Source: Acidithiobacillus sp.
Lineage (GTDB): Bacteria; Pseudomonadota; Gammaproteobacteria; Acidithiobacillales; Acidithiobacillaceae
NCBI RefSeq assembly: GCF_023256195.1
Contig: NZ_JAGDWX010000037.1
Coordinates: 1 to 46,906 of the forward strand
Reading direction: 5' to 3'
Length of the DNA stretch: 46,906 nucleotides
Below the pieces are notes generated by a model. The model was given only the letters and a program-made list of their open reading frames with translations. It had not been told where the DNA came from and did no database searches. The translations under genes and the position numbers were made by a program. Of the stretch, positions 981 through 14,618 are shown piece by piece; positions within the stretch are counted from its first letter, which is position 1; each line of letters starts with the position of its first letter.

Positions 981-2720
981 CTAGAGGCGCCATTGCGCTG
1001 CGATTGGGCCCAAGGCAAGAGCGGGGAAAAAGGTCACGGCCGCGAGCAGCAGGATGACGAGGGCCACAAAGACGATCATCAAAGGAGAGTCTTCGCGCAA
1101 GGTTGCGGCTCCCACCGCCGTACCCTGCTTGCACACCAGGCTCCCGGCCAGGGCCAGGAGCGGCAAGATACCAAAATATCGCCCAAAGAGCATGGCCAGA
1201 GCCGACAGCAAATTGTAAAAGCTGGTATTGACATTCAGGCCACCCATATCGCTGCCATTGTTGTTCACAGCACTGCTGAATTCATAGAGGATCTCACTGA
1301 AGCCTTGTGGTCCGGGATTAAAAACGCTTTCCCGGCCTGCCGGCAGGGCCACGGCCAGGGCGGTGGTCAGCAGCACCAACAGGGGCATCAGCAGAATGGC
1401 GAAGGACACCATTTTGACGTCGTAAGCTTCAATTTTCTTACCCAGAAACACCGGCGTCCGTCCAGTCATGAGGCCAGCCAGAAAAACAGCGAAGATCATC
1501 ACGGCCAGAAAACTCTCCAGACCTACGCCGATTCCGCCGTAGAGCAACTCCCCTAGCTGCATGTAGAGCATGTTGATCCCACTACTCATCGGGGCGGCGG
1601 AATCGTAAGCACAGCCGGACATCCCGGCACCTGTAGTAGCGGCTAGACTGCCAAATAGCCCACAGGCACCAGCGCCAAAACGCAGATCTACCCCCTCGAG
1701 ATCACCCCCTCCAGCATAGAGGGGAAGCGCCTCTTGAGCGACGCTGGCGGGTAAACGCGGATTCCCTTGCAGCTCGAAATATTGGCTGGACAAGGATAAA
1801 GGCAGCCACAACAGCACCGTTGTGGCGAGAATGGCCCAAGCGAGCCTTCGACGCCCCAGCATACGTCCAAAGAGAAAGATATAGGCCGTGGGAAAAAGGA
1901 TGAAGGACAGCATCTGCCCAAGATTCGATAAAGGGCTCGGATTGGCGAAAGGATGTGCCGCACCGCCATTGAAAAAGGCGCCACCGTTACCACCCAGGAT
2001 AGTGATAGCTTCTTGCGAAGCAGCAGGGCCCATGGCCAGAACCTGCTGATGCACTCCACGGCCGTCATACACGAAGGGCTGTATGAGATCGGCGTGGACA
2101 TAGGCCGCCAGATTCTGAATGGCCCCCTGCTGTACATAAAAGAGCGCAAATATGGCAGCGACGGGCAGAAAAAGGTAGAGCACCGTGCGGGTGACATCGA
2201 CCCAGAAATTTCCGAGACCCTTGCCCTTCCTGCGCATAAACGCACGGGTGAGGGCGAGCAGAGTCGCCGCGCCGCTCGCCCCCGCCAGAAAGTTTTGTTG
2301 GGCCAGACCCAAGGCCTGGGAAAGATAACTCAAGGTACTTTCGCCGCCATAGTCCTGCAGATTGGTGGTCGTCACAAAACTCGCGGCCGTGTTGAATGCC
2401 ATCACCGAAGACATCCCGGGGAAATGCTCGGGGTTGAAGGGCAGATGTCCCTGCAACGGGAGCAAAAGATAGAGGGTTACGGCACCCAGTACATTGAAGC
2501 CGAGGAAGTTCAGAGCATAACTTTTCCAGTCCATGTCCTCCCGGGCGGCTCCGCCCGCCACACGATAAATCCCTTTTTCCACAGGGCCCAGGAGCCTACG
2601 CGCCCAAAAGGGTCGACCGTCGTAGACCGCTTCCAGATAGGCGGCCAAGGGGTAGGCCAAGGCTATGGAAAGGCCCAGAACCAAAAGAGTTTGCAGGAGG
2701 GAAGCCGTAAAACCGCTCAC
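981..2720 (-). CDS. Orphan second KdpA-like potassium channel subunit (KdpA2)
   Basis: Paralogue of KdpA, the SKT-type channel subunit of the KdpFABC potassium pump; 579 aa with the expected series of membrane segments and four pore loops. It aligns along its length with the canonical KdpA at 9034-10803. Pore loops differ: loop 1 (about 110-122) has SFVTTTN where the canonical copy has SFVSNTN; loop 2 (about 242-250) has GGNGGAFFN instead of GTNGGGFFN; loop 3 (about 360-374) has GAGMSGCAYDS instead of [11 protein letters not shown]; loop 4 (about 484-495) has NNNGSDMGG instead of NNNGSAFGG, placing an Asp (491) beside the filter. No kdpB, kdpC or kdpF lies next to it. The GTG start has GGAG 8-9 bases upstream. 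It is the last gene of a leftward operon with a PUA-less ProB and small proteins. It may exchange into the Kdp complex or act alone; neither is shown. Confidence 0.88.
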   Translation of the reverse strand: MSGFTASLLQTLLVLGLSIALAYPLAAYLEAVYDGRPFWARRLLGPVEKGIYRVAGGAAREDMDWKSYALNFLGFNVLGAVTLYLLLPLQGHLPFNPEHFPGMSSVMAFNTAASFVTTTNLQDYGGESTLSYLSQALGLAQQNFLAGASGAATLLALTRAFMRRKGKGLGNFWVDVTRTVLYLFLPVAAIFALFYVQQGAIQNLAAYVHADLIQPFVYDGRGVHQQVLAMGPAASQEAITILGGNGGAFFNGGAAHPFANPSPLSNLGQMLSFILFPTAYIFLFGRMLGRRRLAWAILATTVLLWLPLSLSSQYFELQGNPRLPASVAQEALPLYAGGGDLEGVDLRFGAGACGLFGSLAATTGAGMSGCAYDSAAPMSSGINMLYMQLGELLYGGIGVGLESFLAVMIFAVFLAGLMTGRTPVFLGKKIEAYDVKMVSFAILLMPLLVLLTTALAVALPAGRESVFNPGPQGFSEILYEFSSAVNNNGSDMGGLNVNTSFYNLLSALAMLFGRYFGILPLLALAGSLVCKQGTAVGAATLREDSPLMIVFVALVILLLAAVTFFPALALGPIAAQWRL

Positions 2721-2879: not shown

Positions 2880-3347
2880 TCAAAAACCGACGGCGCGTTG
2901 CTGTACCGTGGACTGTGGGGACTGCTCGGCGGTCGCGGACTCCGTGGACGGGGAGTGCGCGTAGCGTGTCCGAAGGCGCGCCAAATCCCCGGCGCTCAGA
3001 CGCCATTCCTGCCAGAAGGCGGCACCATCGAGGCCGATGCGCCAGAAGCCAAGGGTGGAGCTTTCGCGGCAGTACCAGAAGGCTCGATGTTCGATATCGG
3101 CCAAGAGCTCCCAGCGACGCATTTCCCTTGCCTTACGCGCAGGCTCGGCAAAGGCCTTGCCCCAGGGGAAATCATCGTGCGGCGCCACTTGCGGCAGCAG
3201 TTCACTGAGATCGAGCGTGGTGACGCTTCCCGAATACCTCGCGCGATGCGTACGGTGTGCGGCATCCAGGCCGCGCAGATGCCGGGAATACAGCCAATAC
3301 AATGCCAACAAGAGCAGCGCGAAGCTGAGAATCACGACCGATAACAT
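2880..3347 (-). CDS. Small single-pass membrane protein, unknown function
   Basis: 155-aa protein not recognised as a named family. It starts with one hydrophobic segment (about residues 2-20) ending in YWLYSR, followed by a basic stretch and a soluble domain of about 110 residues containing FPWGKAF and a Trp-rich part (FWYCRESSTLGFWRIG). The last 20 or so residues are Ser/Thr/Gln-rich and probably disordered. The ATG at 3347 has GGGAGG seven bases upstream and is preferred over a GTG at 3410, which overlaps the previous stop as GTGA and would add 21 residues. It sits between the 105-aa membrane protein and kdpA2 in the leftward accessory operon. Confidence 0.7.
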   Translation of the reverse strand: MLSVVILSFALLLLALYWLYSRHLRGLDAAHRTHRARYSGSVTTLDLSELLPQVAPHDDFPWGKAFAEPARKAREMRRWELLADIEHRAFWYCRESSTLGFWRIGLDGAAFWQEWRLSAGDLARLRTRYAHSPSTESATAEQSPQSTVQQRAVGF

Positions 3348-3406
3348 AAGAAAACCCTCCCAATCGCGAGACACGACGGACACAGTGGAATCCCATCCCA
3401 GATCGA

Positions 3407-3724
3407 TCACGGCCGCAGCCTCCGCAGATGGGCGTCGGACCAGTGGCCCTTCCTGGCCTCATGCCGCACTTCGTGAAAGCCGCGCAAAAAGGCGTAGAGG
3501 CAAGGATCCTGCCCCTCACTGCGCAAAGGCCAGCGCCCTTGGGCGATGGTGATGGCCTGGTACAGGGGCGCGGCGGGATGCTCCTCGGCCCAACGACGAC
3601 CGTCGCGATAGGCAGCGCGCCGGCGGCTCCGCTCTCGCGCCGCCCAACTCAGGAATGCCGCTAGTGCCAGCACAAACCATGGCATTGCGGGCAGCAGATG
3701 GGACCACCAATCCTGCGAAATCAT
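3407..3724 (-). CDS. Small membrane protein with RWA..EHP / YAF.RGF module
   Basis: 105-aa protein of unknown function. One membrane segment lies at about residues 11-28, followed by an Arg-rich stretch (ERSRRRAAYR). Residues about 40-88 carry a pattern GxRWAxEHP ... LYAFxRGFxxxR that also occurs in the 69-aa protein at 4709-4918 of the same operon, so the two appear to share a domain. The ATG at 3724 is preceded by GAGG about eight bases upstream. The reading frame is open further upstream, but that part overlaps the end of the glutamate 5-kinase gene and has no ribosome site. No catalytic residues can be named. Confidence 0.7.
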   Translation of the reverse strand: MISQDWWSHLLPAMPWFVLALAAFLSWAARERSRRRAAYRDGRRWAEEHPAAPLYQAITIAQGRWPLRSEGQDPCLYAFLRGFHEVRHEARKGHWSDAHLRRLRP

Positions 3725-3761: not shown

Positions 3762-4664
3762 CTAGGCCCAGGTATAAACGGGCTGCGGCAGGGTCGGCAG
3801 ACCCAGTCGCTGGGCAAGACTGCGCATCGTCGCCGGCGCCAGCCAGGTACCCAGTCCTTCACCCTGTCGCACCCGCAGCAGCACCCTTGCCTGGCGGCCC
3901 GCAGCGATAAGGGTCGGGATACCGCGACGTCCGACAAGGCCCGCTGCCCGAATCTTGGTTGCCATGCCGCCCGTACCCAGAGCGCCTTTGCTGCCGCCAG
4001 CCATGGCGATGAGCCTCGGATCATCGCAGCGGCAGCTGTCCACCAGGCGTGCCATGGGGTCTCGGCGAGGATCGGCGGTATACAATCCGACCTGATCCGT
4101 GAGCAGCAAGAGAAGATCGGCGCGCCAGATCCGAGCTACCTGTGCCGCCAGCAGATCGTTGTTGCCGATACCATTGTTGGCATGGACCGTAGCGTCGTTT
4201 TCATTGAGGATAGGGATCGCGCCAGCCACCAGCAGCGCGTCGATGGAATCCCGCAGACGCCGCTGGGCCGACCGCCCCGATAGGTCCACATTGGTCAGCA
4301 ACAGTTGCCCACAGAGGGTATCGCTGGCCTCGAAGCACTCCTGAAAAACGCGCAGCAGTGTCGCCTGCCCGAGACTCGCGGCGGCACGACGCGCCACGTC
4401 TGCGGCGCTGCCGTTCACATCGCCGCATGCCAGATGGCCGCGCCCGACACTGACGGAACCCGAACTTACCAGTACGACGTCCAAACCCTGTTGGCGTAGA
4501 GTCGCCATCTGAAAAACCAGACTGCGAATGGCGAGACGATCCGGCTGACCGTCTTCCCGGGTGAGCAGACTGCTGCCCACCTTGACCACCCAACGCCGCC
4601 CATACTGCGCGGCACGCCGGTTGGGCGGACTCGACCGCGTCATTTCATTGGCGTATATCGACAT
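3762..4664 (-). CDS. proB: Glutamate 5-kinase lacking the PUA domain
   Basis: Amino-acid kinase family glutamate 5-kinase, which makes gamma-glutamyl phosphate, the first step of proline synthesis. Visible motifs are VVKVGSSLLT (26-35), VLVSSGSVSVGR (64-75), NEND (154-157), LLLLTDQVGLYTADPR (185-200) and GALGTGGMATK. At 300 aa it stops after the kinase fold and lacks the C-terminal PUA domain that gives the common bacterial enzyme about 365-370 aa. The usual GDND motif reads GNND (167-170), so one conserved Asp is Asn. The ATG at 4664 has AGGAG seven bases upstream. No proA is nearby. Placement in a Kdp-linked operon suggests a stress-specific paralogue making proline as an osmolyte; loss of PUA might change proline feedback. 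That is inference. Confidence 0.85.
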   Translation of the reverse strand: MSIYANEMTRSSPPNRRAAQYGRRWVVKVGSSLLTREDGQPDRLAIRSLVFQMATLRQQGLDVVLVSSGSVSVGRGHLACGDVNGSAADVARRAAASLGQATLLRVFQECFEASDTLCGQLLLTNVDLSGRSAQRRLRDSIDALLVAGAIPILNENDATVHANNGIGNNDLLAAQVARIWRADLLLLLTDQVGLYTADPRRDPMARLVDSCRCDDPRLIAMAGGSKGALGTGGMATKIRAAGLVGRRGIPTLIAAGRQARVLLRVRQGEGLGTWLAPATMRSLAQRLGLPTLPQPVYTWA

Positions 4665-4708: not shown

Positions 4709-4918
4709 TCAGGCCGGCTCGCTTTCGGCCGGTTGTTCACCAGCGCGGGCCATGGCGAACCCGCGTTCGAAGGCGTAAAGCAAGACTCCTGCACTGGTTT
4801 CGGGATACAGGGCATAACAGGCCGCTTCCACCGCATCGGCATCGGCCTGCGGATGCTCCAAGGCCCAACGGTATCCCTGCCATTCGGCCTTCATTATCTG
4901 CAGTTTCAGAGATTCCAT
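4709..4918 (-). CDS. 69-aa soluble protein with RWA..EHP / YAF.RGF module
   Basis: Short protein of unknown function, probably cytoplasmic, and first gene of the leftward accessory operon (44 bases before the glutamate 5-kinase). Residues about 12-58 contain GYRWALEHP and LLYAFERGFAMAR, matching the spacing and key residues of the module in the 105-aa membrane protein two genes downstream. The C-terminal tail (EQPAESEPA) is acidic. The ATG at 4918 has GGGAGA seven bases upstream; an in-frame extension to 4993 has no ribosome site and runs into the promoter region. A KdpE-like site lies 85 bases upstream. Confidence 0.68.
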   Translation of the reverse strand: MESLKLQIMKAEWQGYRWALEHPQADADAVEAACYALYPETSAGVLLYAFERGFAMARAGEQPAESEPA

Positions 4919-5003: not shown

Positions 5004-5020
5004 TATAAAAAACGCATAAA
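5004..5020 (-). promoter_or_regulatory. KdpE-like binding site before the accessory operon
   Basis: Read on the minus strand, TTTATG, five bases, TTTATA: two half-sites at 11-base spacing. They are identical to the two half-sites before the main kdp operon. The known E. coli KdpE site is of the form TTTATA-N5-TTTACA. The site ends 85 bases upstream of the 69-aa gene. Binding is inferred. Confidence 0.55.
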
Positions 5021-5039
5021 TTCGGACGGGCCAGCAGAA

Positions 5040-6203
5040 CTAGAAAAGCAAACCCGTTTCCAGAAGTCCCCGGGTCTGGCTGCGATCCTTGCCCCTCGGC
5101 CCGGCAAAGCCCTGACCCGAAGGGGAGAAGGCGCAGACATAAGAGAACTCCGCCCGGGCAAAGAAAGCTCCCTGCCGAAAGCTCGGAGTCAGGGTCAGGG
5201 ACCAGGCGTGGGAGTCGCCCGGCAGGTTGGTGATGCCCTGAGCATAGGGACTGGCGGCGCCACTACCCGACACCTCCAGATACTCCACCCGCCCGCCCAG
5301 AGACCAGTGCGAGGTCCAATGGTAGCTTCCCAAAACCCCGACACCCAGATTGTGGAAGGACTGAGTCAGACCGATACCGGGTTGACGCGGGGTGTGCATA
5401 TATTGCACGTACGTTGTCAGCGCCCAAGGCTCGGCATCGTAGCTGTAACTGAGCCCATAGATTGCGCTGTCGTCGGCACCATCGCTGATATTGCCACCTG
5501 TGGCACTGCTGGTATTCCCGCCCGCGCGACCCAGATTACCGCCACCGTAAAAACCAATGCTATTGTGGGCATCCAGAGCGTAGCTGAGAGCACCCGAAAG
5601 GTTATTGAAACGATCGCTGTAGTAACCATCCGTCCAAGCCAGAGACGCCGTCAGCGCGCCCCAATGGCCATTGAGCTGTACGCCCCGGCTGATGTTGGGT
5701 GCCACATTCCAGAGCAGGCCCCGTTCGATATCGATATTTTCGTAGGTGAAGCCACTTTCGACACCAATGAGGGAGGGCAGCTTGCCCACCTGTAAGGAGA
5801 AATGCGCATTGGGAACGATGCTCAGATAGGCAATGGGCAGCGCGCCGAACTGCTGCAGGGTGTTGCTGGTGGAGCTGAAGCCGCTGGCGAGGGTGGGATA
5901 GTTGTAGGCACCCCCTTCCAAATAGAATTGCACGAGGCCCTGATCCTTCTGCACGATGACCAGTGCATTGCTGAGATCAAGGCCTTCGTGCTTGGCGCCC
6001 AGAGTGCCGCCCGCACCCTGGGGATGGTTCTGGGCAAAGGCAAAGGCGCTGACGACACCCTGCACCCCCAGCCTCCCCAAAGGCCCGGCATCGATCTCAT
6101 AGGGCTTGGGCAGGGTATAGGCGCAAGCCATGGCCGGCAGGCCGAGGAGGCCGACGGCCACAACCCAGTTGCGGCATTTCAGGATACGAGCGTAACGAGA
6201 CAT
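5040..6203 (-). CDS. Outer-membrane beta-barrel porin (OmpL-like/BBP2-type)
   Basis: 387-aa secreted protein with an N-terminal signal peptide (about 1-29, cleavage near MACAY). The remainder is built of alternating beta-strand patterns rich in Gly, Tyr and Ser, and the chain ends in ETGLLF, with the terminal Phe typical of barrel proteins assembled by BamA. Segments such as FSLQVGKLPSLIG and YENIDIERGLLWN resemble the beta-barrel porin-2/OmpL family. The ATG at 6203 has AGAGGAAG seven bases upstream and puts the signal peptide at the true N-terminus; the frame stays open to 6275 without support. It lies directly after the kdpC terminator, with four phased KdpE-like half-sites in its promoter, suggesting induction with Kdp. 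The permeant solute is unknown. Confidence 0.78.
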   Translation of the reverse strand: MSRYARILKCRNWVVAVGLLGLPAMACAYTLPKPYEIDAGPLGRLGVQGVVSAFAFAQNHPQGAGGTLGAKHEGLDLSNALVIVQKDQGLVQFYLEGGAYNYPTLASGFSSTSNTLQQFGALPIAYLSIVPNAHFSLQVGKLPSLIGVESGFTYENIDIERGLLWNVAPNISRGVQLNGHWGALTASLAWTDGYYSDRFNNLSGALSYALDAHNSIGFYGGGNLGRAGGNTSSATGGNISDGADDSAIYGLSYSYDAEPWALTTYVQYMHTPRQPGIGLTQSFHNLGVGVLGSYHWTSHWSLGGRVEYLEVSGSGAASPYAQGITNLPGDSHAWSLTLTPSFRQGAFFARAEFSYVCAFSPSGQGFAGPRGKDRSQTRGLLETGLLF

Positions 6204-6250
6204 GGAACTTCCTCTGGAGAATTGCCTGTGCGCCACACTAATCAAAATCC

Positions 6251-6289
6251 TGTAAAAAGGCTCTAAAAAACCCATAAAATTTCTGTAAA
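6251..6289 (-). promoter_or_regulatory. Four phased KdpE-like half-sites before the porin gene
   Basis: On the minus strand the order is TTTACA, TTTATG, TTTAGA, TTTACA, each separated by five bases. The half-sites start at exact 11-base steps (plus-strand left ends 6284, 6273, 6262, 6251). This fits a regulator bound along one face of the helix and resembles the TTTATA-N5-TTTACA KdpE site. The array lies 47 bases upstream of the porin start codon. Confidence 0.6.
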
Positions 6290-6307
6290 ATTCAGGATCG
6301 TGATCAT

Positions 6308-6332
6308 AAAAAAAGGCGCCGTATGGCGCCTT
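6308..6332 (-). terminator. Rho-independent terminator after kdpC
   Basis: An 8-bp stem (6313-6320 with 6325-6332, core GGCGCC/GGCGCC) with a GTAT loop is followed on the minus strand by a run of seven T. It begins 18 bases after the kdpC stop codon, so it should end the kdpFABC transcript before the porin promoter. The A-run on the other side could also allow weak rightward termination. Confidence 0.85.
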
Positions 6333-6349
6333 GAAAAAAGTGAAGCGTT

Positions 6350-6946
6350 TTACTTAGCCTTTCCTTGTTGCTGATATAGCCGATGTAGGGCCAGGTTCAA
6401 TTCCAACACATTCACCCGGGGCTCGCCGATGAAACCCAGAACGGCGGGGCGGGTGTAGCGCTGGATGAGTGCCGCCACCTGCGCCTCCGGCAAATGCCCC
6501 GCCTGGGCCACCCGCGCCAGCTGGTAGCGAGCAGCGGCAATGCTGATGTCAGGGTCAAGTCCGCTCATGGACGAGGTGACGAGATCTACCGGCACTGGAC
6601 GATCGCCATCGGCCGGATCCGCCGCCCGCAGGCGCGCGACCCGCTCCTGGACGTGTCGGACGAGCTCTGGATTGGTCGGCCCGAGATTGGAGGCGCCGGA
6701 GTTTTCGGCGTCGTAGGGCACCGGGTCCGTCGCCGATGGACGTCCCCAGAAATACTGGGGCTGGTCAAAGTACTGACCGATGAGCCGGGAGCCCACCACC
6801 TTGCCGTTTTCGCGGATGAGGGAGCCGTTGGCCTGGTGCGGAAACAGTACTTGGGCCAGGCCCGTGACCAGGAGCGGATAAACGATGCCCGTAGCGACCA
6901 CCAGCAGGGCAAAGACGATGAGTGCTGCGCGTAAGGAACGGATCAT
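6350..6946 (-). CDS. kdpC: Potassium-transporting ATPase subunit C
   Basis: KdpC stabilises the KdpFABC complex and contacts the P-type ATPase subunit at the periplasmic face. The 198-aa product has one N-terminal membrane segment (about 8-30) and a periplasmic domain. Family motifs are visible: IGQYFDQPQYFWGRPSAT, a YDAENSGASNLGPTNP stretch and PVDLVTSSMSGLDPDIS. The ATG at 6946 lies ten bases after the kdpB stop, so the genes are cotranscribed. Length is normal. An intrinsic terminator follows immediately. Confidence 0.97.
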   Translation of the reverse strand: MIRSLRAALIVFALLVVATGIVYPLLVTGLAQVLFPHQANGSLIRENGKVVGSRLIGQYFDQPQYFWGRPSATDPVPYDAENSGASNLGPTNPELVRHVQERVARLRAADPADGDRPVPVDLVTSSMSGLDPDISIAAARYQLARVAQAGHLPEAQVAALIQRYTRPAVLGFIGEPRVNVLELNLALHRLYQQQGKAK

Positions 6947-6956
6947 GGTGCGGTCC

Positions 6957-9023
6957 TCAGATAAGGCTCAGGACGATATCGATGAGCTTGATGCCGATGA
7001 ACGGAGCGATCAGCCCCCCCAGGCCGTATATCAGGAGGTTGCGACGCAAAAGCGCCTGCGCAGACACCGCCCGATAGGCAACCCCCTTCAGCGCCAAGGG
7101 AATCAGGAAAGGAATGACCACGGCATTGAAGATCACGGCAGACAGAATCGCGCTCTGGGGCGAACTCAGGTCCATGATGTTCAGGGCAGCCAGCTGCGGA
7201 TAGGTCCCCACGAAGGCCGCCGGAATGATGGCGAAATACTTGGCCACATCGTTGGCGATACTGAAGGTCGTCAAGGACCCGCGGGTCATGAGCAACTGCT
7301 TGCCGATGCGGACAATCTCCAGGAGCTTGGTGGGGTCCGAATCCAGATCCACCATATTCGCCGCCTCGCGCGCTGCCTGGGTGCCACTGGCCATGCACAC
7401 GGCCACGTCCGCCTGGGCCAGGGCCGGCGCATCGTTGGTGCCGTCGCCGGTCATGGCCACCATGTGCCCTTCCTGATGATATTCGCGGATACGCGCCAGT
7501 TTGGTCTCGGGCTTGGCCTCGGCCATGTAATCGTCGACCCCGGCCTCGGCCGCAATGGCCCCTGCCGTCAGTGGGTTGTCGCCCGTAACCATGACAGTAC
7601 GGATGCCCATCTTCCGCAGCTCGGCAAAGCGCTCCTTGATGCCGGGCTTGACGATGTCCTTGAGCTCCACCACACCGAGGCCACGGCCGTCCAGGGCCAC
7701 CACCAGGGGTGTGGCACCGGATTGCGCCACCTTCTGGACGATCTGATCGATCTCCGCCGGCCATTGACCACCCTTTTCCTTCACCCAGGCTTTGACGGCA
7801 TCGGGGGCGCCCTTACGCAATTCCTTCCCACCGGCATCAACACCACTCATCCGCGTTTCGGCGGTAAACGGAATCCATTTGGCGTCGTCGCCCAAGGTCT
7901 CCTTCGCTTCCGGATATTTCTGCTCCGCCAGCAGGACGATGCTCTTGCCCTCGGGGGTATCGTCCGTCAATGAGGACAGGCGCGCGGCACTGGCCAGCTC
8001 CTGATCCGTCACCCCGGGCGCGGTGTAGAAGGCCGAGGCCTGGCGATTGCCAAAGGTGATGGTACCGGTCTTGTCCAGAAAAAGGACGTCGGCATCGCCC
8101 GCCGCCTCGATGGCGCGACCCGACTTCGCCACCACATTGGCTTGCAGCAGGCGCATGATACCGGCAATACCGATGGCGGGCAGCAAAGCGCCGATGGTGG
8201 TGGGAATAAGGCAGACCAAAAGGGCCACCAGCACCGTGGTGCTGATCACGGTTCCGCTGTGGTTGGCGTAGTGCACGCTGTAGTAAGAGAAAGGATAGAG
8301 CGTGACCGTCACCACCAGGAAAACGATGGTGAGCAGAACCAGCAGCACGGCCAGGGCAATCTCGTTGGGAGTCTTGCGGCGGGCCGCCCCCTCCACCATA
8401 CGGATCATGCGGTCCAGGAAGGTCTCGCCGGCACTACTGGTAATCTTCACCACCAGCCAGTCCGAGAGCACTCGGGTGCCGCCGGTGACGGCGCTGCGGT
8501 CGCCACCGCCCTCGCGGATGACCGGTGCCGACTCGCCGGTGATGGCGCTCTCGTCCACCGAGGCCACGCCCTCCACCGCCTCGCCATCGGAAGGGATGGC
8601 ATCACCCGCCTCCACCAGGACGTAATCGCCGGGCTGCAGGCTCGCTCCGGGGACCTCTTCCCAAGCGGCGCCGTGGCGTGGCTCACGGAGCTTCTTGGCG
8701 GTCACCTCGTGACGAGCCTGTCGCAGACTCGCCGCCTGTGCCTTGCCCTGCCCCTCGGCCAGGGCCTCGGAGAAATTGGCAAAGAGCACCGTGAGCCAGA
8801 GCCAGAAATCCACGGCCCAGACGAAGCCCGCCTCCGCCCACCGGCCGTGCAGCAGGTCGGCAATACCGATGACCGTAACCAGGATGGCGCCGATGAACAC
8901 CACGAACATCACCGGATTGCGCCATTGTACCCGCGGGTCGAGCTTGCGGAAGCTCTCGCGTACGGCGGTCCGGCCCAGCTGCCGCCAGGAAAAACTCGCA
9001 CTATGAATGTGATGGGTCGTCAT
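6957..9023 (-). CDS. kdpB: Potassium-transporting P-type ATPase subunit B
   Basis: Catalytic P-type ATPase subunit that drives potassium uptake through KdpA. Visible motifs are the actuator-domain ITGESAPV, the phosphorylation motif [23 protein letters not shown] and the hinge motif [17 protein letters not shown]. The 688-aa length matches the family. The ATG at 9023 is chosen because it lies just past the kdpA stop, with GAGAGA upstream; a TTG at 9044 would add seven residues and overlap kdpA. It is the third structural gene of a coupled leftward operon. Confidence 0.97.
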
Positions 9024-9033
9024 GATCTGTCTC

Positions 9034-10803
9034 TCAATGACCAATCGAAGAGGTGTTGTGTACCGCCGTCGGCAGGCTCAACTGCTCCGCTATGGGCCCA
9101 AGGCCCAGCGCCGGGATGAAGTTCAAGGCCCCCACCAGCAGCACCACGACGGTAGTGAAGACCACGAAGAGGGGTGTGGCCGGGTTGAGGGTGCCCGGGC
9201 TTGCCGGGATGCGCCTCTTCGCCGCCAGGGAACCGGCGATAGCCAGCAGCGGGAGATAGGCGAGATAGCGATTGAGCAGAACACACAGGCCCGTGAGCAG
9301 GTTATAGAAGGTGGTGTTGGCATTGAGCCCACCGAAGGCGCTGCCGTTATTGTTGCTGGGACTGGTGACGGCATAGAGAATCTCCGAGAACCCATGGGCC
9401 CCGGGATTCAGCACGGCATCGCGGCCGCCCGGCAGACTCACCGCCACCGCCGTGCCGATGAGCACCAGCATCGGCATGACCAATATGGCCAGCGAGGCCA
9501 TCTTGATCTCGTAGGACTCGATCTTCTTGCCCAGAAACTCCGGGGTGCGACCGATCATGAGGCCCGCCAGGAATACCGCGATGAGGACGAAGGCCAGCAT
9601 GGAAGCAATACCGGTCCCCACGCCACCGGGAGTGACCTCACCCAACTGCATCAGGAGCAGATTCACCATACCCGACAAGGGCATGAAGGAGTCGTAGGCG
9701 GAATTGGCGGCTCCCGTCGAGGTTCCCGTGGCCACAGCGCCGAAGAGGGCACTGCCAGCAGTACCGATGCGATCCTCGACCCCCTCCATATTGCCACCAC
9801 CGGCTAGCAGACTCGTATTCTTCTGGTCGACGCCGATGGTCGTGAGCACAGGGTTGCCGGCCAGATCCTGCTGCTGACTCAGTATGGCGAGAGGGGTGAA
9901 GAGCAGTAGCATGACCGCCAGAATACCCACCCCGAGACGCATGTTCTTGACGCGATGACCGAAGTAGAAAACCAAGGCAAAGGGGATGAGAAAAATGGCC
10001 ACCATCTGGAAGAAATTGGTGAGGCCCGTGGGATTCTCAAAGGGATGTCCGGAATTGGCATTGAAAAAGCCGCCGCCGTTGGTACCCAGCAGCTTGATGG
10101 CTTCCTGCGACGCCACCGGCCCCATGGCGATGACTTGCTGCGTCACCATCTGGCCTTTGTGCAGAAAGGGCTGAATCAGGTCGACGTGGACGTACGCGGC
10201 AAAGTTCTGGATGGCACCTTGCTCGACGAAAAACAGAGCGAGGATAACCGACAAGGGAAGGAGCACGTAGAGCGTCGTGCGCACGAGATCCACCCACAGA
10301 TTACCGATGCCCGATTTCTCGGCACGGGTAAAACCACGGATCATGGCCAGGGCCAAGACAATACCGGAAGCGGCAGAGAGAAAGTTCTGTACCGCCATAC
10401 CCAGCATCTGGCTCACGTAACTCATGGTACTTTCGCCACCATAATCCTGCCAATTGGTGTTGGAGACGAAACTCGCCGCGGTATTGAAACTTATCTGCAC
10501 CCCGGGACTGCCGAAGTGCATGGGGTTGAGGGGCAGGTAATTCTGGAAATACAAAAGCAGATAGAGAAAGACAGCGCCTACCAGATTGAAGAGAATCCAG
10601 AGCAGGGCATATTGCCGCCAGCTCATATCGGCTTTGGCATCGACACCGGCCGCGGCATATATGGCGTGCTCCACTGGACCCAGCAGCCTTTTGGCAAGGC
10701 AGCTTTGGTCACTGAAGATACGCTGCATATAGGCACCCAAAGGCCACGCCAGGACGATGGTCACCACCAACATGGTAAAGGTGAGCAGCAGGGCGTCGTT
10801 CAT
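9034..10803 (-). CDS. kdpA: Potassium-transporting ATPase subunit A (canonical)
   Basis: Channel-like subunit that binds and translocates potassium. The 589-aa protein carries canonical pore loops: [35 protein letters not shown], a [13 protein letters not shown] loop and [15 protein letters not shown]. Cytoplasmic motifs [12 protein letters not shown] and [13 protein letters not shown] are present. Its ATG overlaps the kdpF stop (ATGA), indicating coupled translation. Comparison with the orphan copy at 981-2720 shows this one keeps the usual filter residues, so it is the working Kdp subunit. Confidence 0.97.
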
Positions 10804-10892
10804 AGGAAACGCTCCGGATTGAACAGGAAGAAGAAAAGATAGACGAGCAAGGCGGCGGCAAGCCCCAGTCCGATCCAGGTGAAGATATCCAT
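10800..10892 (-). CDS. kdpF: Potassium-transporting ATPase subunit F
   Basis: 30-aa single-span membrane peptide that stabilises the Kdp complex. The sequence has a hydrophobic span (IGLGLAAALLVYLFFFL) and ends with the family tail NPERFL. The ATG at 10892 has AAGGAG six bases upstream. Its stop overlaps the kdpA start, and its start overlaps the stop of the preceding 29-aa ORF. Confidence 0.92.
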   Translation of the reverse strand: MDIFTWIGLGLAAALLVYLFFFLFNPERFL

Positions 10893-10981
10893 CACCAACT
10901 CCTTACACGCTCGAGGAAATAGACGAGGCCTGTGCCCAGACCAAAGGGTATCAGCAGTATCACCAGATAGAGCAAAAACAT
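10892..10981 (-). CDS. 29-aa membrane peptide preceding kdpF
   Basis: A short ORF between the kdp promoter and kdpF. The peptide begins MFLLYLVILLIPFGLG, contains one hydrophobic span (about 2-21) and ends with a charged tail (LERVRSW). GGAG lies seven bases before its ATG. Its TGA and the kdpF ATG share a base (TGATG), the arrangement expected for translational coupling. It differs from kdpF and does not match a family I can name. It could be an extra Kdp-associated small subunit or a translated leader; an unused ORF cannot be excluded. Confidence 0.6.
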   Translation of the reverse strand: MFLLYLVILLIPFGLGTGLVYFLERVRSW

Positions 10982-11022
10982 GATCGATCTCCTTGCAGAC
11001 TCCGGCACCATAACGGCAGCGG

Positions 11023-11039
11023 TATAAAAATGCCATAAA
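11023..11039 (-). promoter_or_regulatory. KdpE-like binding site before the kdp operon
   Basis: On the minus strand TTTATG, five bases, TTTATA, an 11-base direct repeat (plus-strand ATAAAAA at 11024-11030 and 11035-11041). It lies 41 bases before the 29-aa ORF and about 60 bases past kdpD's upstream side in the divergent 163-base gap. It matches the layout of the known KdpE site. Confidence 0.6.
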
Positions 11040-11144: not shown

Positions 11145-13886
11145 ATGAGCGACGACAGTACAGAGGATAGACCGGACCCCGATGCCCTGCTGGCGGCGGT
11201 GCAGAAAGAAGAGGCCGCCAAACAGCGGGGACGACTGAAGATCTTTTTCGGTGCAGCGCCCGGGGTAGGCAAGACCTACGCCATGCTTCGCTACGGCCTG
11301 GACGAGATGAACAAGGGTCGGGACGTGCTCATCGGCGTGGTGGAAACGCACCAGCGCAGCGACACCCAGGCCCTGGCCGACGCCCTGCCACAGCTCCCCC
11401 TGCGGGAGGTACAGCACCGCAACGTCACGCTCAAGGAATTCGATCTGGACGCCGCCCTGGCGCGCCGTCCCGGTCTGCTGCTGCTGGACGAACTGGCCCA
11501 CAGCAACGCGCCGGGCTCCCGTCACCAAAAGCGCTGGCAAGACCTGGAAGAGCTTCTGGACGCCGGCATCCACGTCGCCACCACCGTCAATGTCCAGCAT
11601 CTCGAGAGCGTCAACGAAGTGGTGCGCGCCATCACCGGCGTGCAGGTGCGCGAAACCGTGCCCGATCGCATCATTGCCGAGGCGGAAGAGCTCACCCTGG
11701 TGGACATCAGCGATACCGACCTCCTTCAGCGCCTGAAGGAGGGCAAGGTCTACCTGGGGGAGCGCGGTGAGCGGGCCATGGCCAACTTCTTCCGCAAGGG
11801 TAACCTCATCGCCCTGCGGCAGCTGGCCATGCGCATCGCCGCCGATCGCGTGGATCTGGAACTGCGCCAGTTCAATGCCGAGAACCCGGAAGACTCCAAA
11901 TCCGGCGGCGGCGTGCGGGAGCGGCTGATGGTGGCCATCGGCATGTATCCCGAGGACGAACATCTGGTGCGGGCGGGCTATCACCTGGCGACGGCCTTGC
12001 GCTGTCCCTGGATCGTGGTACACGTGGATACCCCCCGGGGATTGCTGCAGAAGCCCGAGGAGCAGGCGTGGCTGTGGAGCCACCTGCATCTGGCCGAACG
12101 TTTGGGTGCCGAGACCGTGCGCCTGACGGGCGTGGACGTGGCCGCGGAGATCCTGGCCTATGCCGAACTGCGGGACGTGACCCAGATCCTCGTCGGTCAG
12201 GCCCAAGGCCTGCGTCGCTACATCTGGTGGTGGCCCGGCTCGCTGCTGGGCAAGCTGCTCAACCGGCAGCGGCGCATGGATGTGGTCGTGCACCCCCTGC
12301 CCCTGAAGAAGGCCGTGAGCGAGGAGAGCCTGGAGCGAAGTCGTCAGTACCTGGGCATGACCATCAGCCCGGAGCAACGGCGCCAGCGCAACCGCGCCCT
12401 GGCCATGGGTGCGGGCCTCGGCATCGGTCTGTCGCTGCTCGCACTGGCCCTGAATCCGCTCCTGGGTCTGCCCAGCGTCTTCCTCCTGTACCTGGTGGGT
12501 ACCGTGGGCACGGCTCTACACTACGGGCGCTGGCCCTCCATCATCGCCCTGTCCAGCGCCCTGGTGACCTTCTACGCCTTCGGTCTCAGCCGCGGTCTGC
12601 CGGCCACCCTCGGCTCCCTGGTGACCTTTGGCATCATCCTGGCCCTGGCCGTACTCATCAGCCAATTGGTAGCTCGCTCCCGCGAACAGGAAAACATGGC
12701 GCGCATGCGCGAGCGGCGGGCGCGCAATCTCTACACGCTGGTGCAGGCCCTCAGCCGTCTGCGCAGCGCCCCGGAGATTCTGACCACGGCGGCGGAGCAG
12801 ATCCACAGTACCCTCGGCCTCAGCACCGCCTTCTGGTTGCCGGCAGGGGCCGACGACGGCTTGCCCCTGCGGCTGCTGCCAGAGGACACCGATCTGGGGG
12901 AGCAGCGCGATGGTCTGCAGTCCGCAGCCGTCTGGGTCTTTCAGCACGGTCGCCCGGCGGGCATGGGCACCGATACCCTCTCGGGTCTGCCGGCCCTGAT
13001 GCTGCCCATCTCCGCCGGCGAACGAGTGCTGGGGGTGATGATGGTCAGCGACGTGGAGATCCGACGCACACCGGCGGACTGGCTGCGCTACATGGAGACC
13101 ATCACCCGTCTGGTAGCCGTCGCCCTGGAGTCGGCCCGCACCTTTCAGCGGCGCAGCGAGGCCGACCTGCACCTGCAGCTGGAACGCATGCAGAGCGCCC
13201 TCTTGAGCGCCGTCTCCCACGATCTGCGCACACCGCTCACCACCATTCTGGGCTCTCTCGCCACCCTCGAGCGCCTGCACGGCACCCTGCCAGAGGCAGA
13301 ACAGCAGCAGCTGATTCGCGATATCCGCACCGAGACGGAACGCATGAGCCAGACCATGGAGCGCATCCTGCGGGTAGCCGCTCTGCTGTCGGGCGGTGCC
13401 GAACTGCACAAGGAGTGGGTACCGCTCACGGAGATTTTGGGCAGCGCCCGGCGAGAGCGCGAGAGTCTCTGCGCCGATCGCCCCTTCAACGTCCAGATCC
13501 CCGCCGATCTGCCCTTGCTGCACGGAGACCCCACCCTGCTCACCCAGGTGCTGGGCAATCTCATCGAAAACGCCTGCCGCTACACCCCGCCGGGTAGCGC
13601 CGTGGATATCCAGGCCTGGGCCAATCCGCAGGAGATCTTCGTCTGCGTCATCGACCACGGCTATGGCATCCCGCCCGGGCGCGAACGCGAGATCTTCGAG
13701 CGCTTCAGTCGCGTCAAACCGCCGGTTGGCACGGGAGGCAGTGGCCTGGGTCTGGCCATCGCCCAGAGTGTTCTGCAGATGCACGGCGGGCGCATCTGGG
13801 CCAGCAACCAGGTCATGAACCGGGGCGCCAAATTCTGTTTTTCCCTGCCGCGGGAAGCGCCGCCCTCTCTGCCCAAGGAGGAGTAG
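11145..13886 (+). CDS. kdpD: Potassium/turgor sensor histidine kinase KdpD
   Basis: Membrane sensor kinase that controls KdpE in response to potassium limitation and osmotic stress. Domain order: N-terminal KdpD domain with a Walker-type GAAPGVGKTYAML, a universal-stress-like domain, four closely spaced membrane spans (about 420-520), a GAF-like region, the HisKA box AVSHDLRTPLTTI and an HATPase with GYGIPPGREREIFERF and GGSGLGLAIAQ. The ATG at 11145 has AAGGA upstream and gives 913 aa, close to the usual 890-900; a TTG at 11076 would add 23 poorly supported residues. It is transcribed divergently from kdpFABC and is followed directly by kdpE. Confidence 0.96.
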   Translation: MSDDSTEDRPDPDALLAAVQKEEAAKQRGRLKIFFGAAPGVGKTYAMLRYGLDEMNKGRDVLIGVVETHQRSDTQALADALPQLPLREVQHRNVTLKEFDLDAALARRPGLLLLDELAHSNAPGSRHQKRWQDLEELLDAGIHVATTVNVQHLESVNEVVRAITGVQVRETVPDRIIAEAEELTLVDISDTDLLQRLKEGKVYLGERGERAMANFFRKGNLIALRQLAMRIAADRVDLELRQFNAENPEDSKSGGGVRERLMVAIGMYPEDEHLVRAGYHLATALRCPWIVVHVDTPRGLLQKPEEQAWLWSHLHLAERLGAETVRLTGVDVAAEILAYAELRDVTQILVGQAQGLRRYIWWWPGSLLGKLLNRQRRMDVVVHPLPLKKAVSEESLERSRQYLGMTISPEQRRQRNRALAMGAGLGIGLSLLALALNPLLGLPSVFLLYLVGTVGTALHYGRWPSIIALSSALVTFYAFGLSRGLPATLGSLVTFGIILALAVLISQLVARSREQENMARMRERRARNLYTLVQALSRLRSAPEILTTAAEQIHSTLGLSTAFWLPAGADDGLPLRLLPEDTDLGEQRDGLQSAAVWVFQHGRPAGMGTDTLSGLPALMLPISAGERVLGVMMVSDVEIRRTPADWLRYMETITRLVAVALESARTFQRRSEADLHLQLERMQSALLSAVSHDLRTPLTTILGSLATLERLHGTLPEAEQQQLIRDIRTETERMSQTMERILRVAALLSGGAELHKEWVPLTEILGSARRERESLCADRPFNVQIPADLPLLHGDPTLLTQVLGNLIENACRYTPPGSAVDIQAWANPQEIFVCVIDHGYGIPPGREREIFERFSRVKPPVGTGGSGLGLAIAQSVLQMHGGRIWASNQVMNRGAKFCFSLPREAPPSLPKEE

Positions 13887-14617
<731 letters not shown>

Positions 14618-14618
<1 letters not shown>

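Follow-up and report, generated by a model that had tools for sequence, protein, structure and literature searches.

Phased TTTAYR half-sites before kdp, porin and glutamate 5-kinase genes of Acidithiobacillus: a probable KdpE regulon extending beyond kdpFABC

We analyzed a 46.9-kb stretch of DNA (the window) from Acidithiobacillus sp. (contig NZ_JAGDWX010000037.1), which carries a kdp potassium-uptake locus and three putative binding sites for the response regulator KdpE. The host genome (G000) comprises 1.98 Mb in 37 contigs, and the sole other genome of the same genus in the comparison was that of A. caldus ATCC 51756 (G001). Leftward from the divergent kdpDE genes, the order is a 29-aa peptide, kdpF, kdpA, kdpB, kdpC, porin, h94, ProB2, h105, h176, and KdpA2. 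Pattern and matrix searches located a KdpE-type site, TTTATG-GCATT-TTTATA, before the kdp operon (11023..11039, minus strand), a second, TTTATG-CGTTT-TTTATA, before the operon of small proteins and ProB2 (5004..5020, minus), and a third two-half match, TTTACA-GAAAT-TTTATG, in the porin promoter (6273..6289, minus). Each consists of two TTTA(T/C)A-type half-sites with a 5-bp spacer, if G is permitted at position 6 (TTTAYR). The original prediction, that three promoters share such sites, agrees with the pattern search, which finds precisely these three in the window; the kdp and accessory sites do share TTTATG-N5-TTTATA. For the porin promoter, four TTTAYR half-sites had been claimed. The array (TTTACA, TTTATG, TTTAGA, TTTACA; 6251..6289, minus) keeps the exact 11-base phase, but its third member is TTTAGA, and the strict consensus is fitted by three of the four.

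The kdp genes lie on the minus strand. The first encodes the 29-aa membrane peptide (10892..10981). Of 19 family kdp leaders (those of G006 and G028, with partial KdpA matches, were left out), 18 have a single-span peptide of about 30 aa 5′ of kdpF. In the window this peptide overlaps the kdpF start, and it has the look of an additional small subunit of Kdp. It is followed by a 30-aa open reading frame (ORF) read by eye, which we take from its context to be kdpF (10800..10892), by kdpA (9034..10803; TIGR00680, 681.5 bits, cut-off 387.7), by kdpB (6957..9023; an ORF with 69–96% identical matches in family kdp loci, named from context), and by kdpC (6350..6946; PF02669). A BBP2-family outer-membrane porin comes next (5040..6203; PF07642, 190 bits). 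On the plus strand, profile matches identified the sensor kinase kdpD (11145..13886), adjoined by the response regulator kdpE (13887..14618).

The best Protein Data Bank (PDB) match of the window KdpE is KdpE itself (4kny), and Y191, R193, R200, and T215 of the DNA-binding domain are kept in the alignment. According to the available part of PMC3264566, R193, R200, and T215 are important for DNA binding by Escherichia coli KdpE, R193 is conserved only in KdpE orthologues, and the E. coli half-sites are TTTATA/TTTACA with a 5-bp spacer. Two statements of the original prediction stand, namely that the KdpE site is TTTATA-N5-TTTACA-like and that kdpDE is adjacent (11145..14618, divergent). The window resembles the E. 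coli KdpDE-kdpFABC system in having two TTTA(T/C)A half-sites with this spacer upstream of kdpFABC and in the kept recognition residues of KdpE. It differs in carrying up to four half-sites and in showing them at several promoters.

The pattern TTTAYR-N5-TTTAYR was matched three times in the window and not once in 100 shuffles of it. The training set of a half-site matrix consisted solely of kdp-upstream arrays of other genera, 16 in all and 13 after removal of duplicates. When all 17-mers of the window were ranked with this matrix, the three sites came joint first (two tied) and third, with 25.6, 25.6, and 22.1 bits; in 60 order-1 Markov windows the mean maximum was 9.4 bits, the 95th percentile 15.7, and the highest score 21.5. 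The porin four-half array reached 39.3 bits, compared with at most 10.3 in the same Markov windows. Phase 11 is the best phase: at 14 bits or more, two half-sites gave seven windows (some overlapping) at phase 11, three, three, and two at phases 9, 13, and 14, and none at 8, 10, or 12, and at 18 bits or more, four half-sites gave three at phase 11 and one at phase 10.

The kdp array ends 41 bp upstream of the first start codon of its operon, and the porin array ends 47 bp upstream. To judge from this spacing, the arrays would occupy the −35 region, which the kdp array probably overlaps, whereas the E. coli footprint spans −72 to −50 (available part of PMC3264566). By eye, −10-like boxes were seen about 10 bp past the last half-site in the kdp and porin promoters and 13 bp past it in genus g2; a scan for sigma-70 hexamer promoters gave matches not above shuffles. 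A terminator-like hairpin (6313..6332, minus) is weak by itself, given that 10 such hairpins were found and 10.5 are expected in shuffles. Its position between kdpC and the porin array, and its presence in A. caldus too, suggest that the porin has its own transcript.

Conservation was surveyed in 20 kdp stretches fetched from other genomes of the family, giving 25 kdpA genes together with the window. Arrays precede 23 of these (L132 and L137 in relaxed form only), and the two kdpA genes lacking one are the orphan KdpA2 of the window and its A. caldus counterpart. Exact family sites are situated between kdpD and kdpF/A, with a second set before ProB2 or porin, and all those mapped in the fetched stretches are oriented with the downstream gene. 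The core kdp promoter of A. caldus has TTTATG-N5-TTTACA at the equivalent place. In the porin promoter, the half-sites and the terminator-like hairpin are the blocks conserved between G000 and A. caldus, the rest having diverged. Accessory loci, recognized by ProB2 or porin, numbered 15 (12 of the fetched stretches, L210, L211, and the window itself), and 13 of them have an array. In other genera, too, arrays are present before ProB2; there the glutamate kinase/porin cluster and kdp are preceded by arrays of the same kind.

When 29 family genomes were searched for three phased half-sites, 22 of them yielded matches, 72 in total with some overlap, while the reversed control gave none in any of the 29. 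Fifty-four of the matches lie at kdp or accessory loci and 18 are Pho-like; none lies elsewhere. Twenty genomes have a kdpA match, and a kdp-type three-half array was found in 15 of them; of the nine with no such match, eight have none. Four half-sites with at most one mismatch gave 63 rows family-wide, assigned by eye to kdp/ProB2/porin/permease (44), Pho-like (13), and a single repeat tract in G010 (6), and thus no new target; five of the six reversed-control matches are in G010. The outcome that would have refuted the original prediction, with such repeats just as common in unrelated intergenic regions, was accordingly not seen: apart from the G010 tract, three- and four-half arrays occur at kdp and accessory loci, before permease-proB in the genus of the window, and at Pho-like loci. 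It could be argued that the sites are chance repeats of AT-rich promoters, seeing that the two-half pattern is unenriched over its reversed control in many genus g2 genomes (11 versus 15 in G002, 10 versus 23 in G012) and that the G010 tract, like its control, matches by composition. Specificity in genus g2 rests on at least three phased half-sites, for which the reversed control is empty throughout; this, the top rank and score of the sites in the matrix scan of the window, and the uniform orientation of the exact family sites make coincidence extremely improbable.

In the whole of G000, TTTAYR-N5-TTTAYR has eight matches (one for the reversed pattern), all of which can be accounted for: three are the window sites, four have Pho-type flanks, and one precedes a permease-proB operon. 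Three of the eight fall inside 6 kb, for which uniform placement gives P of about 1.6e-6; this value is optimistic because the 6-kb stretch was delimited by the sites themselves. The four Pho-flanked matches have ATGACA/TGTCAT-type flanks. One is near two binding-protein-dependent permeases, read as PstC/PstA, and two are near a phosphoesterase/glycosyltransferase pair. Pho boxes bound by PhoB are the other main class that matches the pattern; they are likewise direct repeats, read by a member of the same regulator family, but they differ in their ATGACA/TGTCAT cores. The TGTCA core is present in the Pho class and not in the window sites. Among the 18 Pho-like family matches, the flanks were read in 11 and have TGACA-type cores, and the other seven were classed by match string.

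These matches bear on the question of whether another OmpR/PhoB-family regulator (PhoB, or a KdpE paralogue such as that beside the A. caldus KdpA2) reads the arrays, with KdpE confined to kdp. PhoB is reported to read related direct repeats (available part of PMC3264566), the Pho-like arrays fit the same TTTATG pattern, and an extra KdpE-like regulator adjoins KdpA2 in A. caldus. PhoB is disfavored as the binder because the four G000 matches and 18 of the 72 family matches fall into a class of their own, marked by ATGAA/ATGAC strings. Moreover, the same array type precedes kdp itself, and eight of nine genomes with no kdpA match have no kdp-type three-half array. No regulator adjoins KdpA2 in the window (KdpE paralogues were not searched for in the rest of the genome). 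We therefore consider control by a different regulator unlikely, and favor KdpE as the protein that would bind the arrays.

The remaining genome-wide match, outside the window, belongs to a permease-proB operon (G000:C18:41482-44417; L192). A perfect four-TTTA array at C18:41482 is followed by an amino-acid permease (PF13520) and directly afterward by a proB of full length (392 bits). Array, permease (about 96% identity across the available part), and proB are all shared by A. caldus; in its promoter the four TTTA cores are kept and much of the surrounding sequence has diverged. Mismatch-free four-TTTA arrays were detected in G000 only at the porin and permease promoters, and in A. caldus at the permease and at the chromosomal and plasmid-borne copies of the porin; with up to two mismatches, the reversed control gave one match in G000 and two in A. 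caldus. Three ProB proteins exceed the cut-off in G000 and two of them are behind arrays, so that proB is paired with an array at two loci of one genome. The permease-proB operon is a candidate further member of the predicted regulon, which is probably wider than originally stated. KimA-like potassium transport by the permease was also considered and is unsupported, because its named PDB matches are amino-acid or polyamine transporters.

Beyond the family, 80 loci (1.54 Mb) were recruited by KdpA similarity. They contain 36 strict or near-strict sites, 29 of which (one on the opposite strand) fall within the 2.8% of bases upstream of kdpA; the reversed control found none. At E 1e-4, these 80 stretches gave a single match to the porin and none to ProB2 or h94, and the accessory set may for this reason be particular to the family.

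Several observations weigh against KdpE control of this breadth. A strict or near-strict site is present in only 28 of the 80 non-family kdp loci. Five genomes (G000, G001, G023, G024, and G028) have a kdpA match and no kdp-type array by the strict three-half pattern, and G014 (85% complete, no kdpA found) has two accessory-locus arrays. The two accessory loci lacking an array are L126 in G015, where ProB2 is truncated, and L121 in G020. Arrays at permease-proB as a family-wide feature were rejected: 25 second-proB loci were fetched, the permease was undetected in 12 (some at contig ends), and two of the 13 loci with both genes have the array, both in the genus of the window, the best array scores elsewhere being 16.5 (L193) and 16.0 (L209) of 20. 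The NCBIfam KdpE model is the best model for the window KdpE, but its 196 bits fall under the 325 cut-off. The main text of a study of A. caldus under NaCl (PMC10599003), in the part available, does not mention kdp or the porin. Operon extents are a weak point; these, as well as KdpE binding, activation, and the proline and porin physiology, we infer.

A further difficulty concerns the accessory promoter. The prediction of a KdpE regulon beyond kdpFABC is supported by the comparative tests, but in the promoter comparison the site at 5004–5020 is not present at h94, the same gene, in A. caldus, where the porin array may serve the whole accessory cluster. The accessory sites could then be real but weak relics, carried along with a kdp-linked cluster and of little regulatory effect. 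This reading would be in keeping with that absence, with the placement of the A. caldus cluster among insertion sequence (IS) elements on a megaplasmid and again on the chromosome, and with the array that precedes a truncated ProB2 in G008 (L124). It is hard to reconcile with porin half-sites that rank among the most conserved parts of a promoter which has diverged elsewhere and with accessory arrays kept across several genera, and we regard it as very unlikely.

The predicted accessory operon, on the minus strand, begins with h94 (4709..4918), a 69-aa small protein of unassigned function whose start was set by the ribosome-binding site and homologues. Of the 31 genomes searched in the order, 13 have it, and its matches, including weak extras in A. 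caldus and G003, lie at kdp/accessory loci as far as they could be placed. The next gene, ProB2 (3762..4664), encodes a glutamate 5-kinase (TIGR01027, 227 bits, cut-off 186) that covers profile positions 2–260 of 363, with the kinase motifs kept by eye. The C-terminal part, which we take to be the PUA domain, is missing in all 10 aligned ProB2 proteins. A clean single origin of ProB2 does not emerge from the tree, in which branches are very long and the ProB2 proteins do not all fall together. The product of h105 (3407..3724), with a hydrophobic N-terminus as read by eye, is a likely paralogue of h94 from motif and homologue comparison: its A. caldus counterpart is 36% identical to h94 (E 1e-5), and h105 and h94 share G-RWA-EHP and YAF-RG motifs. 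The unassigned h176 (2880..3410) has homologous pieces in A. caldus and matched no Pfam or NCBIfam family.

Bacillus subtilis has an osmotic proline operon, proHJ, with a second glutamate 5-kinase, ProJ. The Halobacillus operon proHJA, a further likeness, is induced by salt and employs a glutamate kinase for stress proline (PMC2412884, available part). The kinase of the window differs in having no PUA part, in its place within a kdp locus, and in its predicted response to KdpE, and no other proline gene was seen beside it. Among five solutes supplied to A. caldus in the presence of NaCl, proline gave the greatest benefit, and overexpression of a gene named proB2 in that study raised final sulfate with no significant overall growth advantage (PMC10599003, available part). 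ProB2 and the array-linked proB would fit a role of proline as a stress solute.

The last gene, KdpA2 (981..2720, minus), was identified by TIGR00680 (556 bits, over the 387.7 cut-off), alignment, and tree. Its second filter loop reads GGNGGA instead of GTNGGG, the other loops compared are largely kept, and in the tree it shares a long branch with the A. caldus copy. That copy has the loop AGDGGA and is apparently interrupted near the N-terminus. The loop altered in KdpA2 is presumably the one that holds the position of E. coli G232. Exchange G232D in the selectivity filter of E. coli KdpA lowers affinity and selectivity (PMC12629597, available part). The extra KdpA of G008 and G013 has its own array and is separate from KdpA2; in G008 (L125, 12476–16340) the kdpA genes are in tandem, each with an array, apparently a separate KdpA duplication. 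In A. caldus, the second KdpE-like regulator adjoins KdpA2 (L118, 16065–16772; NZ_CP005987.1, 98123–98869), IS elements lie near it on the megaplasmid, and the kdp-accessory cluster is also on the chromosome. The original prediction had tied the porin, the small proteins, the glutamate 5-kinase, and the orphan KdpA to potassium limitation; the arrays support this for the porin and the accessory genes, whereas only gene order suggests that KdpA2 belongs to the h94-ProB2 transcript.

Based on these comparisons, it is quite probable that phosphorylated KdpE binds these sites as arrays and would thereby switch on kdp, the porin, the h94-to-KdpA2 cluster, and permease-proB together. The support consists of direct observations: the sites with their matrix rank, their conservation in the family, their near-restriction to kdp/accessory genes in whole-genome searches, and the DNA-contacting residues of KdpE. 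Scarce K+, or salt or turgor stress, would lead KdpD to phosphorylate KdpE; KdpE~P would bind TTTAYR half-sites in head-to-tail orientation, two to four of them at intervals of one helical turn (11 bp), directly upstream of the core promoter; and it would turn on the 29-aa peptide-kdpFABC pump, the BBP2 porin, the h94-ProB2-h105-h176-KdpA2 cluster, and, outside the window, the permease-proB operon. This is a variant of known KdpE control and not a new kind of system. A bolder and rather doubtful proposal is that KdpE of the family is a multi-operon potassium/proline regulator that has repeatedly captured PUA-less or spare glutamate kinases, with KdpA2 an altered-filter subunit that swaps into the KdpBC pump and changes its affinity or selectivity.

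Among the papers listed on KdpE/kdpDE and on Acidithiobacillus with potassium, porin, or proline, none reports such a regulon in its title or in the opening of its abstract. E. coli KdpE is regarded as essentially a single-operon regulator, with adeP, uxaA, and uxaC added as direct targets (PMC7657598, available part). The loci described here offer ready promoters for asking how many phased half-sites KdpE uses. If the prediction is true, acidophiles would meet ionic and osmotic stress with a single switch that joins potassium uptake to outer-membrane entry and to the synthesis of proline; this is relevant to biomining, where salt limits the use of acidophiles.

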